From positions 1-64,000 of the forward strand of contig JAJDTU010000013.1 of NCBI GenBank assembly GCA_022826965.1: 64,000 nucleotides of DNA, in the 5' to 3' direction. Below, piece by piece: positions 6,566 to 18,106 of the stretch; positions within the stretch are counted from its first letter, which is position 1; each line of letters begins with the position of its first letter. A model generated the notes under the pieces. That model ran no database searches and was not told the DNA's origin. It saw only the letters and a list, made by a program, of their open reading frames with translations. The DNA is from Dehalococcoidia bacterium (GTDB lineage Bacteria > Chloroflexota > Dehalococcoidia > Bin125). Position numbers and translations under genes: made by a program.

Positions 6566-7654
6566 ATGGATTACGGCATCGCTTTTCCTTCGTACATCGA
6601 TGCGTGGCGCGAGGCGGCTGCGGCCGAGGCGGCCGGCTTCACGCACGCGTGGTTCTTTGACTCGCAACTGATCTACAGCGACGTCTATGCCAGCATGGCG
6701 CTGGCGGCGGAGCACACGAGCCGGATTACGCTGGGCACCCTGGTGTCGATCCCGAGCAACCGCCTCTCGGCGGTGACCGCGTCAGCGATCGGGACGATCA
6801 ACTACCTGGCGCCGGGGCGGGTCGTGCTGGGACTGGGCACGGGCTACACCGGTCGCAACACGATGGGTCTGCCGGCGGTGCCGGTGAAGGAGTTCCGCGA
6901 GTACACGCAGCAGGTACGCGGTCTGCTGCAGGGCGAAGAGGTCTTGATCCGCGAAGGCGAGCGCGAGCGCTGGATCCGGCTGCTACACCCGGATCGCGGG
7001 GGCTTCGTCAACATCGAGGACGAGATCCCGATTTTCCTGGCCGCGAACGGGCCCAGGGCGCTGGCGGCCACTGGTGAACTCGCCGACGGCTGGGTGACGG
7101 GGGCGCTGACGCCCAACCTCGCAGAGGGGTTCGACGCGATTCGCGCTGCCGCCGCCGCTGCCGGTCGGTCAACCGAGAAGCCCTACACGGTCGGGTTGAC
7201 AAGCGGATGTGTACTGCGCGAGGGCGAGTCGCTGATGTCGCCGCGGGTGATCGAACGGGTCGGCCCGAATGCGCTGCCCGGCCTCCATGCGATGTGGGAG
7301 TCGCACTATGGTCCTGGCGCGAACCTCGGCATTGAAGATCCCGACGCCGCGGCCGCCTTCCATCGGTACATCGTGGAGTACGGCGACGCGCGCGGGAGCG
7401 AGGCGGATCGACGTTACCTCGATGTGCACACGGGTCACATGGTTTTCCTCAAGCCGGGCGAGGAGCAGTTCATCAGCGCGGACTCGATCGGCGCGACGCT
7501 GACCGGAACGCCGGCACAGATCATCGAGCGGTTAGAGGAGATGGAGGCGGCTGGCATCGACAACGTCGCGATTGCCTGCACGGATGCGGCCGGGGCGCGC
7601 GACCTGATCGCCGACTTCGGTCGCGAGGTGATTGCCAAGCGATCTACCGCTTAG
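6566..7654 (+). CDS. LLM-class flavin-dependent oxidoreductase
   Basis: 362 residues of the bacterial-luciferase-like (LLM) superfamily, using FMN or F420. I chose the ATG at 6566 because MDYGIAFPSYIDAW matches the starts of the two paralogues at 60712-61803 and 61824-62912, and a GGAG lies upstream; the open frame runs further upstream by chance. Shared blocks are HAWFFDSQLIYSDVYASMAL, LGTLVSIPSNR and LGTGYTGRNTMGLPA. The substrate is unknown; methylene-tetrahydromethanopterin-reductase-like or monooxygenase roles are both possible. Confidence 0.92.
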   Translation: MDYGIAFPSYIDAWREAAAAEAAGFTHAWFFDSQLIYSDVYASMALAAEHTSRITLGTLVSIPSNRLSAVTASAIGTINYLAPGRVVLGLGTGYTGRNTMGLPAVPVKEFREYTQQVRGLLQGEEVLIREGERERWIRLLHPDRGGFVNIEDEIPIFLAANGPRALAATGELADGWVTGALTPNLAEGFDAIRAAAAAAGRSTEKPYTVGLTSGCVLREGESLMSPRVIERVGPNALPGLHAMWESHYGPGANLGIEDPDAAAAFHRYIVEYGDARGSEADRRYLDVHTGHMVFLKPGEEQFISADSIGATLTGTPAQIIERLEEMEAAGIDNVAIACTDAAGARDLIADFGREVIAKRSTA

Positions 7655-9167: not shown

Positions 9168-11129
9168 CTAGGCCTTGAGCTTTTGGACGGCGAAGAGTTG
9201 TTCGTTGCCTCTGGGCTGGACGGCTCCGGCGGGCCAGCGGACACCTGAACGAACGACGCCGGCGGTCTGGATCTCCACCAGAGGGAGCATGTAGTAGCCG
9301 AGGGTGTGTTCGATGAACAGCTGGCTGATCAACTCGCTCCGCTTGGCCGGGTCGAGCTCCAGCCGTTGGGCCCGCGCGAGCTCCGTGACCTCTTCGCTGC
9401 TGCCGAGGGTGTAGACGCCCTCCGGCAGGACGGAGATGTTGACGGTTGTCTGGATGTCGGTGCGCTGGCCGTCGATGAACCACCAGATCCCGGGCGCCCC
9501 GTCGGTTCTGCCGGCTCCGGCCTGTCGAATGCCGGCGTCGGTGAAGTACTCCGAGGCGGGATACTCCTTGATCGTCAGCCGGATGCCGATCGCCCCGAGG
9601 TCCTGCTGGACCTGGAGCGCCATCTCGGGGATACCCGGTGAGAAGCCGATGACGATGTGGAACGTGGTGTCGAAGCCGTCGGCGTAGCCCGCCTCGGCCA
9701 TGAGCTCCCTGGCCCGCTCGGGATTGTGTTCGAACATCAGCCCAGCGGCCTCGATCTCATCCTCGGTGGGATATCCGAAGGCGCTGCGGCCGGTGAACAG
9801 GGGCTGCTTCTCGGTGCCGGTCAGCAGGCCGTCGATGATCGCCTGGCGGTTGACGGCGATGTTGGCTGCCTCCCGCACGCGAATGTCGAGGAACGGATTG
9901 GGCGAGCCGTCCTCGAACACCGGGTTGTTGAGGTTGAACCTGGGCAGCATCGTGGTCGCGCCCTGGTAGTGGATCTCATAACCGGGGTCGTCGATGAACC
10001 CCTCAACGTCCTTGGTCGCCAGGCCGTACAGGACGTCCAGTTCTCCGGCCTCGAGCCCCGCGATCTGCGACAGCACCTCAGGCCGGATCAAGACCTTGAG
10101 GTCCTTGTGGAAGGGCACGTGTTTGACGTTGACCGGGTGGTCGAGCGGCTTGAGGTGGTCGTCGAAGCGGGTCATGACGAAGTCGGTGTCGTCGGTGTGG
10201 CTGACGAAGCGGTAGGGACCCGTGCCCATCGGCTCGCGGTCCATGACCGCGTCGCCGACGGTCTCCACATATGCCTTGGAGAAGATCGCCCCGACCGTCG
10301 AGGCGTTCGGCATCTGGTTGGAGACCCAGGCGGCATCGGGAGCGTTCAGCTCCACCTTCCAGGTGCGCTCGTCGACGGCTTGACTGCTGACCCAGTTCTG
10401 CGAGCCGAAGGAGACGCGCGCGCTGGTCCAGCCGGCCGGGTGATCGGTCGTTTCGCCGCCCTGGTGGTACTCGGCGATGTTGCCCATCCGCTCGTAGGTG
10501 AAGACCAGATCCTCCGCCGTGAGGGTCGACCCGTCATGGAAGAGAGCGGGCATGACCTGGGCCACCATCGTCACGTCGTCGACGAATTCGGGCACGATCA
10601 TGTGCGGTCGGATCGAGTTGTCGTCCGGATCGAAGACGATGCCGGCGTCGTACACATTGCCGTGGGAGATGTAGTTGACGTGACTGCCGGAGCGGATCGG
10701 GTCGAGCCCGCCGCCGTCGCGGGGGACTGCGGTCGTGATCGTGGCGTCCAGGTCCAGGTCGGCGAAGGGGGCGGGAGCGACGGCCTGCTGTTCGGCCTGT
10801 TGCTGCGCCTGTTCCTGGGCGGTCTGTTCTTGCTGTTCGACCTGCTGGGCCTGCTGCTGGGCTTGCTGCTGTTGTTGCTCCTGCATCGCCTGCTGCTGAG
10901 CCTGCTCTTGCATGGCCTGCTCTTGCTGCTGCTGTTGCATGGCCTGCTGCTGTTGCTGGTCCTGCTGCTGGGCCTGCGTGACGGCCGGCTGGGCGTCGTC
11001 ATCGTCGTCGCCGCAGCCGACCAGGGCCAGGCCGGCGGCGCCGACGCCGGCGCGAGCGCTGCTGCGCAGCAGGGCTCGGCGCGTCAGGTGCTTGCGGGAC
11101 ATTCGGGTCCAGTAGTTTCGCTCGCTCAT
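9168..11129 (-). CDS. ABC transporter substrate-binding protein, family 5, Tat/lipoprotein type
   Basis: 653 residues. The N-terminus carries a twin-arginine signal (TRRALLRSSARAGVGAAG) and a lipobox LVGC with the lipidated Cys at 39, then five Asp and a Gln-rich tether from about 51 to 116. The remaining ~530 residues are a peptide/nickel-type (SBP_bac_5) binding domain, with blocks such as LTAEDLVFTYERM, MGTGPYRFVSHT and FLDIRVREAANIAVNRQAII. It is divergent to the permease pair at 11365-13190, its likely partner. Twelve consecutive G lie immediately upstream of the start on the coding strand. The ligand, probably an oligopeptide or similar small organic compound, is unknown. Confidence 0.92.
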   Translation of the reverse strand: MSERNYWTRMSRKHLTRRALLRSSARAGVGAAGLALVGCGDDDDDAQPAVTQAQQQDQQQQQAMQQQQQEQAMQEQAQQQAMQEQQQQQAQQQAQQVEQQEQTAQEQAQQQAEQQAVAPAPFADLDLDATITTAVPRDGGGLDPIRSGSHVNYISHGNVYDAGIVFDPDDNSIRPHMIVPEFVDDVTMVAQVMPALFHDGSTLTAEDLVFTYERMGNIAEYHQGGETTDHPAGWTSARVSFGSQNWVSSQAVDERTWKVELNAPDAAWVSNQMPNASTVGAIFSKAYVETVGDAVMDREPMGTGPYRFVSHTDDTDFVMTRFDDHLKPLDHPVNVKHVPFHKDLKVLIRPEVLSQIAGLEAGELDVLYGLATKDVEGFIDDPGYEIHYQGATTMLPRFNLNNPVFEDGSPNPFLDIRVREAANIAVNRQAIIDGLLTGTEKQPLFTGRSAFGYPTEDEIEAAGLMFEHNPERARELMAEAGYADGFDTTFHIVIGFSPGIPEMALQVQQDLGAIGIRLTIKEYPASEYFTDAGIRQAGAGRTDGAPGIWWFIDGQRTDIQTTVNISVLPEGVYTLGSSEEVTELARAQRLELDPAKRSELISQLFIEHTLGYYMLPLVEIQTAGVVRSGVRWPAGAVQPRGNEQLFAVQKLKA

Positions 11130-15863: not shown

Positions 15864-15901
15864 GCCCTCACCCTAACCCTCTCCCTCAGGGAGAGGGGAC
15901 C
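15864..15901. repeat. dispersed palindromic repeat, family A, overlapping a gene end
   Basis: GCCCTCACCCTAACCCTC followed by CCCTCTCCC-TCA-GGGAGAGGG. On the minus strand it supplies the last codons (Val-Pro-Ser-Pro) and the TGA stop of the gene at 15886-16962, so the element has become part of that coding sequence. Confidence 0.75.
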
Positions 15902-16962
15902 AGAGGGCCCGGCAGTTCGCAGGAGAAGTCGAAGTCGATGGGGGCGTGGACCGGGTGGGTTGAGCCGGCGAGGCCTCCGCTGAAGACCGCGGAGTACATG
16001 CCTCCGCCTCCGGCGACGATGAGGACAATGTCTTCGGGGCCTCGCAAGGCGGGTAGGTGGGCGTCGTCGTTGCGGAAGGCTCGCTTTGTAGCCCAGCCCC
16101 GCATTGTTGAGTTCGGGGTCACGGCCAGCTTCACGAGGCGCTCAATGACGTCATCGCGGGTGAGTCCCGCTGAGGCGAGGACGCCGGCGTGTACCGGATT
16201 GAGAACGACGATCACCGGACCGTTGCCGATCTGCGTGTTGTTGGCTCCGGGAATCGCGATGGCCCCGGCGACGACGCGGAGGATGCGTTCGTGGGCTTCG
16301 GGATCGTCGTCGTTGGTCTGCATCATGACGGAGTGGGGCGCGTCGACGCCGACGAGGGTGACGGCGGACTGGTCGGCGTCGTAGCCGAAGCTGGTGTGCA
16401 GTGGTGAGAAGGGGCTGCCCTCTTCGTCTTCGGCGAGGCAGCAGGTGAACTTGCCCGGCTGACCGAGGGCGGCCATGTCACCGTGGCCGGGTCGGGCGCC
16501 GCCGATGTTCATCAGGCAGAGTCGCAGGGCTCGACCGATGCTGGCGTTGGCGCGATGTCCGGGTCCGAGCGCGCCCCAGCCGGAGGCGATCGGACCGCAG
16601 ACCTCGCGGGCGGGACCGTTGACGATGATCACCGGTCCGAGGCCATGGGTCGTGGACTGCATGTTGTCGATGTCGAACTCGGGATCGCCGACCGCGCGCA
16701 CGGCGGCCAGCACGACGGGGAAATGCTCCGGTCGGCAGCCGGCCATGACGGCGTTGATCGCGACCTTCTCGACGGTCGCCTGGCCGGGACCGATCTCGCC
16801 GATGACGACATCCGGTTCGAGTTCGACACCCGCGAGCAGGGCTTCGACGCGCTCTTCAGTGGGGATGACGACGGGCAAACCGTCGGTCCACTCACGCAGA
16901 TGGAACAGTTCGAGCGCCGTTGCCTCGTCCGAGGCCTGGTGGCGCGTAGAGCGCAGGTTCAC
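15886..16962 (-). CDS. unknown protein coupled to a UGSC-type selenoprotein, 358 aa
   Basis: I cannot name a family. The start is a GTG that overlaps the TGA stop of the selenoprotein gene upstream (GTGA), so translation is coupled. It is soluble and glycine-rich, with two similar-looking halves containing GLGPVIIVNGPAREVCGP and TQIGNGPVIVVLNPVHAGVL. A block around residues 150-180 reads MNIGGARPGHGDMAALGQPG and then KFTCCLAEDEE, with a vicinal Cys pair. The coupling suggests that it works with the selenoprotein as partner or second subunit. The last codons come from a family A repeat. Confidence 0.85.
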   Translation of the reverse strand: MNLRSTRHQASDEATALELFHLREWTDGLPVVIPTEERVEALLAGVELEPDVVIGEIGPGQATVEKVAINAVMAGCRPEHFPVVLAAVRAVGDPEFDIDNMQSTTHGLGPVIIVNGPAREVCGPIASGWGALGPGHRANASIGRALRLCLMNIGGARPGHGDMAALGQPGKFTCCLAEDEEGSPFSPLHTSFGYDADQSAVTLVGVDAPHSVMMQTNDDDPEAHERILRVVAGAIAIPGANNTQIGNGPVIVVLNPVHAGVLASAGLTRDDVIERLVKLAVTPNSTMRGWATKRAFRNDDAHLPALRGPEDIVLIVAGGGGMYSAVFSGGLAGSTHPVHAPIDFDFSCELPGPLVPSP

Positions 16963-17489
16963 CGGGTGCGCCCCTCGAGCAGGTCGATGATGCCGGGCGC
17001 GGCCTCGTGGGCGACGCGGGCGAGGTTTTCGTCGCCCGTGCCGGAACAGGGATGAGGCAGGACGCAGCGAGGCACGGCGGGCATGCCGACGGCCTCGGCG
17101 GTGAACGCGGCCAGCTCGACGAACGCCTCGGTGACGATTGCGATGGATGGAAGGCCGGCCTTGGCGAAGATTGCTCCGTCACGCACGGTGCCGGATGTGC
17201 AGCCGCCTCAATGCCCCCAGGCGGCGAGCACGGCATCGCACTCTTGGCTGATGACATCAACCTGCTCGTCGGTCACGGCCGCGACGTTGGGCTTCTGGTA
17301 GTGACGGAAGGTGGCCTGCGGCATGATGGCGGCCAGTTCCGACTCCAACTTGTGCATGAACTCCGTGCCGTCGGGGAAGGCGTTTGAGATCAGGCCGACC
17401 GTGATCGGGCCGCTGGTGTCGATGAAGAGCTCGTAGGGTTCAAGGTCGATGCCGCGCTCGGCCGTGGGTTCGAGGAAGGTGACGGGCAT
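16959..17489 (-). CDS. UGSC-type selenoprotein, TGA at 17208-17210 read as Sec
   Basis: Read through one in-frame TGA this gives 176 residues; otherwise it would break into 93- and ~75-residue ORFs in the same frame. AGGAG lies 7 bases before the ATG. Around the TGA the protein reads DAVLAAWGH-U-GGCTSGTVRDGAIF, with Sec at 94 and Cys at 97, then KAGLPSIAIVTEAFV. This is the arrangement of the UGSC family, known from marine metagenomes to use Sec or Cys in U/C-G-S-C. Here the third residue is Gly, giving UGGC. A redox role through a selenenylsulfide is inferred. It lies 21 bases after the AhpD-like selenoprotein gene and overlaps the next gene. Confidence 0.85.
17183..17200 (-). promoter_or_regulatory. 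possible bSECIS element of the UGSC-type gene (weak)
   Basis: From 8 bases after the TGA, GCAC pairs with GTGC around a 10-base loop containing GG at +16/+17. An alternative fold pairs TCCG with CGGA slightly further on. Both are short, so this element is far less convincing than the one in the neighbouring AhpD-like gene. Confidence 0.3.
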
Positions 17490-17510
17490 GGTGGGTCTCC
17501 TGGGAGAACG

Positions 17511-17996
17511 CTAGGGGATCTCGGTCGGGCATTCGCGACGAATGCCAAGCACGGCGAGCTGGCGGCCGCCGCCCACAAAGCAGGCGACGCAGGTGGAGAG
17601 GTCGAGGATCTCGTCGTCTGAGAACAGGGCTCGCAGGCCAACCCAGTAGTCGTCGTCCATCGACGAGTGGTCGTAGCTGAAGCGCTCGGCGAAGTCGATC
17701 GCGGCGCGTTCCCGATCGGTGTAGAGCGAGCTCTCGCGATAGTTCGAGACCTCTGCGTAGGCCGCTTCAGTCAGACCGTTCTGCATCGCCGATGCAGAGC
17801 GTGTGTCCAGTCAAACGGAACATTGGTTGATCTCAGCGATGCGCATGCGCACGAGTTCGCGTTCGCGCGCCGGCAACTGGCTGTGCTCGATGACGGCGCG
17901 CGAGAGCGCGCTCATCGCCACGCCCAGTTCGGGGCGCGCCTGGAAGAGACGGGTGCTCTCTTCGCCTTCACCCGGGGCGATGTCGATCCGTGCCAT
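17511..17996 (-). CDS. AhpD-like (carboxymuconolactone decarboxylase fold) selenoprotein, CxxU
   Basis: Read through the TGA at 17811-17813, this is a 161-residue AhpD/CMD-family protein. The ATG at 17996 has AGGAG 7 bases upstream. The catalytic block reads LVRMRIAEINQCSV-U-LDTRSASAM, with Cys59 and Sec62 exactly where the family has CxxC, followed by the usual DRERAAIDFAERF. Without readthrough both halves are short in-frame ORFs, each lacking part of the active site. Relatives are alkylhydroperoxidase partners or peroxidases. A good stem-loop follows the TGA. It is the first gene of a three-gene operon with the UGSC-type protein. Confidence 0.9.
17780..17798 (-). promoter_or_regulatory. 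bSECIS stem-loop of the AhpD-like gene
   Basis: Starting 13 bases after the TGA, TCTGCATC and GATGCAGA form a perfect 8-bp stem around the loop GGC. The loop begins 21 bases after the TGA with GG, which fits the known rule for bacterial SECIS elements: a stem-loop inside the coding region, loop about 16-37 bases downstream, with a conserved G at its start. This would recruit SelB. Confidence 0.8.
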
Positions 17997-18106
17997 GGCT
18001 AGCTCCTGCCGTCGAATTGATGCTAGCGGTGGTGGATCGGCGTCACAATGCAGCGCCGCGTCGGTCGGCGAGGATTGGAGGCAGGGATCTTCCACGCCAG
18101 GCTGTT

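Follow-up and report, generated by a model that had tools for sequence, protein, structure and literature searches.

Selenocysteine (Sec) is very probably inserted at codon 62 of an AhpD-type oxidoreductase gene in a Dehalococcoidia bacterium, as judged from comparative analysis of the gene and its homologues. The window that we analyzed is a 64,000-nucleotide stretch of DNA (contig JAJDTU010000013.1, positions 1 to 64,000). The gene is on the minus strand, a point left out of the original prediction. It has the following features.

17511 to 17996, minus strand: predicted AhpD/CMD-family selenoprotein gene, 161 aa with Sec62, read through a TGA; start ATG at 17996-17994 and stop TAG at 17513-17511.
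18003 to 18007, minus strand: AGGAG ribosome-binding site 6 nt before the ATG, assigned from sequence.
17811 to 17813, minus strand: in-frame TGA, predicted selenocysteine 62 (CSVU), kept in all five same-genus orthologues.
17780 to 17798, minus strand: predicted bacterial SECIS hairpin with an 8-bp stem and a GGC loop at +21, based on sequence, covariation and the contrast between TGA and Cys genes.

The TGA at codon 62 is the sole interruption of the frame that runs from 17996 to 17511. The original prediction had placed it at the second Cys of a CSV-U motif, as Cys59-Sec62, and this placement was exact. The read-through product (MARIDIAPGEGEE...RIAEINQCSVULDTRSASAMQNG...PTEIP) has the active site C59-S-V-U62. 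With U read as C, the product scored 55.5 bits against PF02627 (CMD; cut-off, 23) and 28.8 bits against TIGR00778 (AhpD core; cut-off, 27.8). However, it scored below the cut-offs of TIGR01926 (peroxidase-related enzyme; 46.0 versus 81.8 bits) and NF053654 (YciW-related (seleno)protein; 56.4 versus 310 bits). Because it passes the AhpD-core and CMD cut-offs but not the other two, the protein is, by these profile scores, a new subfamily member of the AhpD/CMD selenoproteins. Its identity to other homologues of the family is about 25 to 30%. We aligned the AhpD-like profile with solved Cys-type proteins, as the original prediction had proposed. The alignments with 2gmy (Atu0492), 2o4d (PA0269) and others were gap-free across the TGA (E values of 1e-13 to 1e-11). 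By sequence, the protein belongs to the same fold family as PA0269 and Atu0492 and has a corresponding CxxC site (E of about 1e-11 or lower).

The AhpD-like gene has a SECIS element directly 3' of the UGA with a G in a small apical loop, as is required of a bacterial selenoprotein gene. The hairpin, TCTGCATC-GGC-GATGCAGA, extends from +13 to +31 after the TGA, with its loop at +21 to +23 and eight perfect pairs. The original prediction had described it correctly in every detail (8 bp, a GGC loop, a start 13 nt after the TGA and the loop at +21). Of the 1762 TGAs found when the two strands of the window are taken together, only 7 are followed at the right interval by a perfect stem of 8 bp or more with a 3- to 7-nt G-bearing loop. 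The DNA of the hairpin is unchanged across five same-genus genomes. In codons 66 to 72, which form the hairpin, none of the six degenerate codons varies, compared with 75 of 121 comparable codons elsewhere (Fisher p 0.004).

The hairpin also recurs at the class level. Of 20 distinct TGA homologues, 13 form seven or more consecutive pairs around a 3-nt loop (GTC, GGC or GGG) at exactly +21. None did so when the arm was slid by 1 to 3 nt, and at most 1 did so across 2000 shuffled sets. All seven inner pairs occur as more than one standard pair type, that is, with compensatory changes. We then compared homologues with and without the TGA. A stem of at least 6 bp with a 3-nt loop at +20/+24 was found in 32 of 47 TGA homologues but in 0 of 28 Cys (TGC/TGT) homologues (p 6e-10, a nominal value because the sequences are related). 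This contrast is the control that matters most for the Sec reading. The remaining 15 TGA homologues lack a hairpin at the exact offset, and some of them have a displaced one. An Rfam search of the window gave no matches, which carries no weight against a bacterial SECIS. "Textbook SECIS" was fair wording. Same-genus conservation, class-level covariation and the contrast between TGA and Cys genes concur.

A genome that encodes a bacterial selenoprotein is expected to contain selA, selB, selC and selD, and all four were found in the assembly containing the window (3.0 Mb, 14 contigs, 97% complete). selC scored 70.2 bits against a cut-off of 47, and ARAGORN called it as tRNA-SeC with the anticodon TCA. 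selB is a 695-aa frame that scored over the curated cut-off, and selA and selD scored 522.9 and 351.9 bits, respectively. The absence of selB or selC, which the original prediction had named as the finding that would count against it, is not the case. In this genome, selD (G000 C12, L095 1501-2442) also encodes a selenoprotein, its in-frame TGA falling in the motif CGGUGSK. A scan of codon usage across the window revealed no convincing additional Sec genes.

The AhpD-like gene is followed by a second selenoprotein gene and a third gene on the same strand.

16959 to 17489, minus strand: UGSC-family selenoprotein gene (PF24696), 176 aa with Sec94, motif UGGC, its TGA kept in five genomes.
17497 to 17501, minus strand: AGGAG of the UGSC gene.
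17208 to 17210, minus strand: in-frame TGA, Sec94 of the UGSC protein (WGHUGGCTSG).
17175 to 17195, minus strand: probable SECIS of the UGSC gene with a CGUGC loop at +21, a local prediction found in 3 of 4 orthologues.
15886 to 16962, minus strand: third gene, 358 aa, with a GTG start overlapping the UGSC stop, often paired with UGSC.

The UGSC gene starts 21 nt downstream of the AhpD-like stop. Neither this neighbour nor the replacement of the relay histidine described below was part of the original prediction. The UGSC protein matched PF24696 at 135.8 bits (gathering cut-off, 25), with UGxC present as UGGC. It therefore resembles the UGSC family NF041046/PF24696, but it has its own motif and missed the NF041046 equivalog cut-off (101.6 versus 125 bits). 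Its SECIS candidate is weak when taken alone (z about 0). The third protein matched no Pfam or NCBIfam family. Its predicted model was confident (pLDDT 89.0) and gave no match to PDB folds at an E value of <0.001. Elsewhere in the window, the minus-strand region 10598-11129 encodes what appears by eye to be an extracellular solute-binding protein, with a long Gln/Ala/Met/Glu repeat stretch at its N terminus.

The trio of AhpD, UGSC and third gene is intact and in the same order in four genomes (G000, G001, G013 and G014). G003 has the UGSC and third genes without AhpD, and a short run like the last AhpD codons (GAAATCCCCTAG) lies just upstream (L182, about 6930-6963), suggesting that the AhpD gene was deleted there. 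In G006, UGSC survives only as a remnant, and the third gene carries an in-frame TGA. Many genomes of the class have homologues of UGSC and the third gene next to each other, and most genomes examined have no AhpD-like gene adjoining the pair. Therefore, AhpD is not essential to the UGSC pair, and its gene is an add-on to this widespread pair. In a looser cluster on contig 455 of G270, an AhpD-like TGA gene and homologues of the third gene and UGSC lie within 7 kb. A natural fusion of UGSC with a domain called "Unknown_1" has been described (PMC2398784). The adjacency of UGSC and the third gene in the class agrees with that fusion, in which Unknown_1 may be the family of the third gene.

The same study suggested a thioredoxin fold for UGSC (PMC2398784). 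We did not adopt this assignment: our UGSC model (pLDDT 93.5) matched flavodoxin-like α/β folds, but only weakly (TM about 0.5), so we assigned no fold. The UGSC profile did align with GrdB/PrdB sequences extended past their TGA (hhalign probability 90.7%, E value of 1.3e-6), with Sec falling on Sec. The match is to the Sec-bearing C-terminal part of GrdB/PrdB. This homology at first seemed absent because Pfam PF07355 (GRDB) stops just before the Sec. Among class-level GrdB/PrdB-like genes extended past the TGA (L187-L211), all 23 of the 23 read had Sec. The genome containing the window has a GrdB/PrdB-like Sec gene of its own (G000 C4:595606), with weaker matches at C2:373767, C2:375154 and C14:215719.

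In Mycobacterium tuberculosis AhpD and PA0269, the proton relay consists of a Glu, the CxxC motif and a His 4 residues past the second Cys, and this relay His (PA0269 His55) has been described as invariant in known AhpD structures (PMC3141380). In the present protein, the relay Glu, which precedes the first Cys by 12 residues, is present as E47 and is invariant in four orthologues. However, the relay His position is occupied by Arg66. PA0269 and Atu0492 have Cys in place of Sec and keep the relay His, whereas the present protein has Sec together with Arg66. Because the relay His is replaced by Arg, classical peroxidase activity cannot be assumed for this protein.

We examined the residue at this position more widely. 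Among 47 distinct Sec homologues, U+4 was Arg in 30, Asn in 10 and His in 7; the equivalent residue of 28 distinct Cys homologues was His in 26, Gly in 1 and Arg in 1. The class-level tree gathers the Cys forms of the His type into a single clade and places both Cys forms without His among Sec groups, so the His changed independently only a few times. A strict rule that Sec replaces the relay His held in 30 of 30 cases within the class, but it had to be rejected, since seven Sec forms in the phylum-wide sample have the His. Therefore, His loss in Sec forms is a tendency only. One reading is that the Sec selenol, being more easily ionised, may have relaxed the need for the relay base. All four AhpD orthologues share a second CxxC motif (C136-V-A-C139) and C156 without variation. 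These residues could help to resolve a Se-S bond.

We propose that the protein is an AhpD (CMD)-fold thiol/selenol oxidoreductase containing Sec. SelB and the Sec-tRNA would decode the UGA at codon 62, aided by the hairpin that begins 13 nt downstream. By analogy with AhpD chemistry, Sec62, at the position of the reactive second Cys of CxxC, would attack a peroxide or disulfide first, and the resulting Se-S bond between Sec62 and Cys59 would then be reduced by a dithiol partner. Gene order suggests that the protein may support the UGSC-pair reaction by reduction or by oxidant clearing. Because the gene forms one apparent operon with UGSC and the third gene, support of whatever reaction the UGSC pair performs is its most likely role, but this is much less sure than the Sec insertion. 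One possibility is that the UGSC pair is a reductase that is re-reduced by the AhpD-like protein.

In a variant of this explanation that is compatible with Sec insertion, the protein would not be a peroxidase, and its Sec/Cys pair would be the dedicated reductant of the UGSC protein or its substrate. The adjacent UGSC gene in the apparent operon fits this variant, and so does the change of the relay His to Arg, as in most Sec forms of the class. In addition, profile comparison relates UGSC to the Sec domain of GrdB/PrdB, and the GrdB/PrdB enzymes need a dithiol reductant. However, the UGSC pair mostly occurs without an AhpD-like gene, and the seven Sec forms elsewhere that keep the His mean that His loss is no simple consequence of Sec. 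We regard such a dedicated role as possible but somewhat doubtful.

Whatever its role, Sec insertion at codon 62 explains the gene far better than the readings that do without Sec. The gene might be a pseudogene, namely, an ordinary Cys AhpD gene with a nonsense mutation. The TGA is in frame, and the copy in G008 (L050 5077-5373) is truly decayed, with a frameshifted start region and a lost 3' end; its TGA and hairpin are intact. However, the same TGA is present in five genomes. Among the four intact same-genus orthologues, dN/dS was 0.04-0.06 before the TGA and 0.06-0.16 after it, which indicates purifying selection on both sides, and strong selection past the TGA. Tens of divergent homologues from across the phylum also have a TGA in this column, and otherwise similar genes of the phylum have Cys there, e.g., CYYCMASH beside CAYUMSSH. 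The gene thus has a UGA conserved in orthologues and a Cys in aligned homologues, the pattern expected of a bacterial selenoprotein. With the conserved hairpin and the complete Sec machinery also against it, a pseudogene is very improbable.

We give just as little credence to two separate short genes without read-through, which a gene caller would put at 94 and 91 codons. Both halves are open frames, but the second half has its first ATG (17786) within the 3' arm of the hairpin, with no ribosome-binding site, and the split would cut one AhpD domain in the middle of its active site. Intact short half-genes in close homologues, which the original prediction had named as a finding that would count against it, were not found among the AhpD-like homologues; these are either read-through TGA genes or continuous Cys genes. 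The last alternative, that the UGA is read as another amino acid through a reassigned code or general suppression, would likewise keep the frame open but is hardly credible, since UGA also serves as a normal stop here (it ends the UGSC gene, for example), a tRNA-Sec with anticodon UCA is present along with selA, selB and selD, and the hairpin depends on the TGA.

Two other arrangements were seen among the homologues. In several genomes (L170, L173 and L159), a TGA AhpD-like gene directly adjoins a homologue without any CxxC/CxxU, as tandem paralogues. On G202 C59 (L084), a Cys-type AhpD frame starts with a MoaD/ThiS-like stretch (...EISIVPAVAGG), by eye an apparent natural fusion.

AhpD-like selenoproteins with a CxxU motif were reported from the Sargasso Sea in 2005 (27 sequences; PMC1088965) and from the GOS data in 2008 (AhpD-like 1, 299 sequences; AhpD-like 2, 70 sequences; PMC2398784), so the novelty that the original prediction implied for such a protein is not supported. 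A 2026 review lists them as TIGR01926, NF041047 and PF02627 types (PMC13188914). Like these proteins, the present one is bacterial and has an AhpD/CMD domain, a Sec second in CxxU and a SECIS just downstream. However, they are metagenome sequences, whereas the present gene belongs to a distinct subfamily and is intact in four genomes of one genus. Going by the published descriptions, its UGSC neighbour and the Arg at the relay position also set it apart. In the Prx-like/AhpD-like gene pairs of GOS, an AhpD-like selenoprotein gene likewise adjoins a second selenoprotein gene (PMC2398784; PMC13188914), but the partner there is peroxiredoxin-like and here it is UGSC. Operons with at least two selenoproteins are already known. 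The operon section of the 2026 review (PMC13188914) does not include the AhpD-UGSC pairing, nor did the literature surveyed, mostly outside subscription journals, describe this AhpD-like member or its combination with UGSC.

The AhpD-like gene would be mis-annotated as two fragments. Its recognition places a family described mostly from metagenome reads in a genome-level context, with an intact operon, a named phylum and the complete Sec machinery. It also links AhpD-like selenoproteins to the abundant UGSC selenoproteins. Furthermore, it yields a testable statement on how Sec alters what the AhpD active site requires: Sec forms usually lack the relay His, and Cys forms nearly always have it. 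The AhpD-like, UGSC and third proteins might even form one enzyme system, in which a His-less Sec-AhpD would recycle a GrdB/PrdB-like Sec enzyme. We consider this rather unlikely, but if true, it would mean that these Chloroflexota have a pathway built on two selenoproteins.
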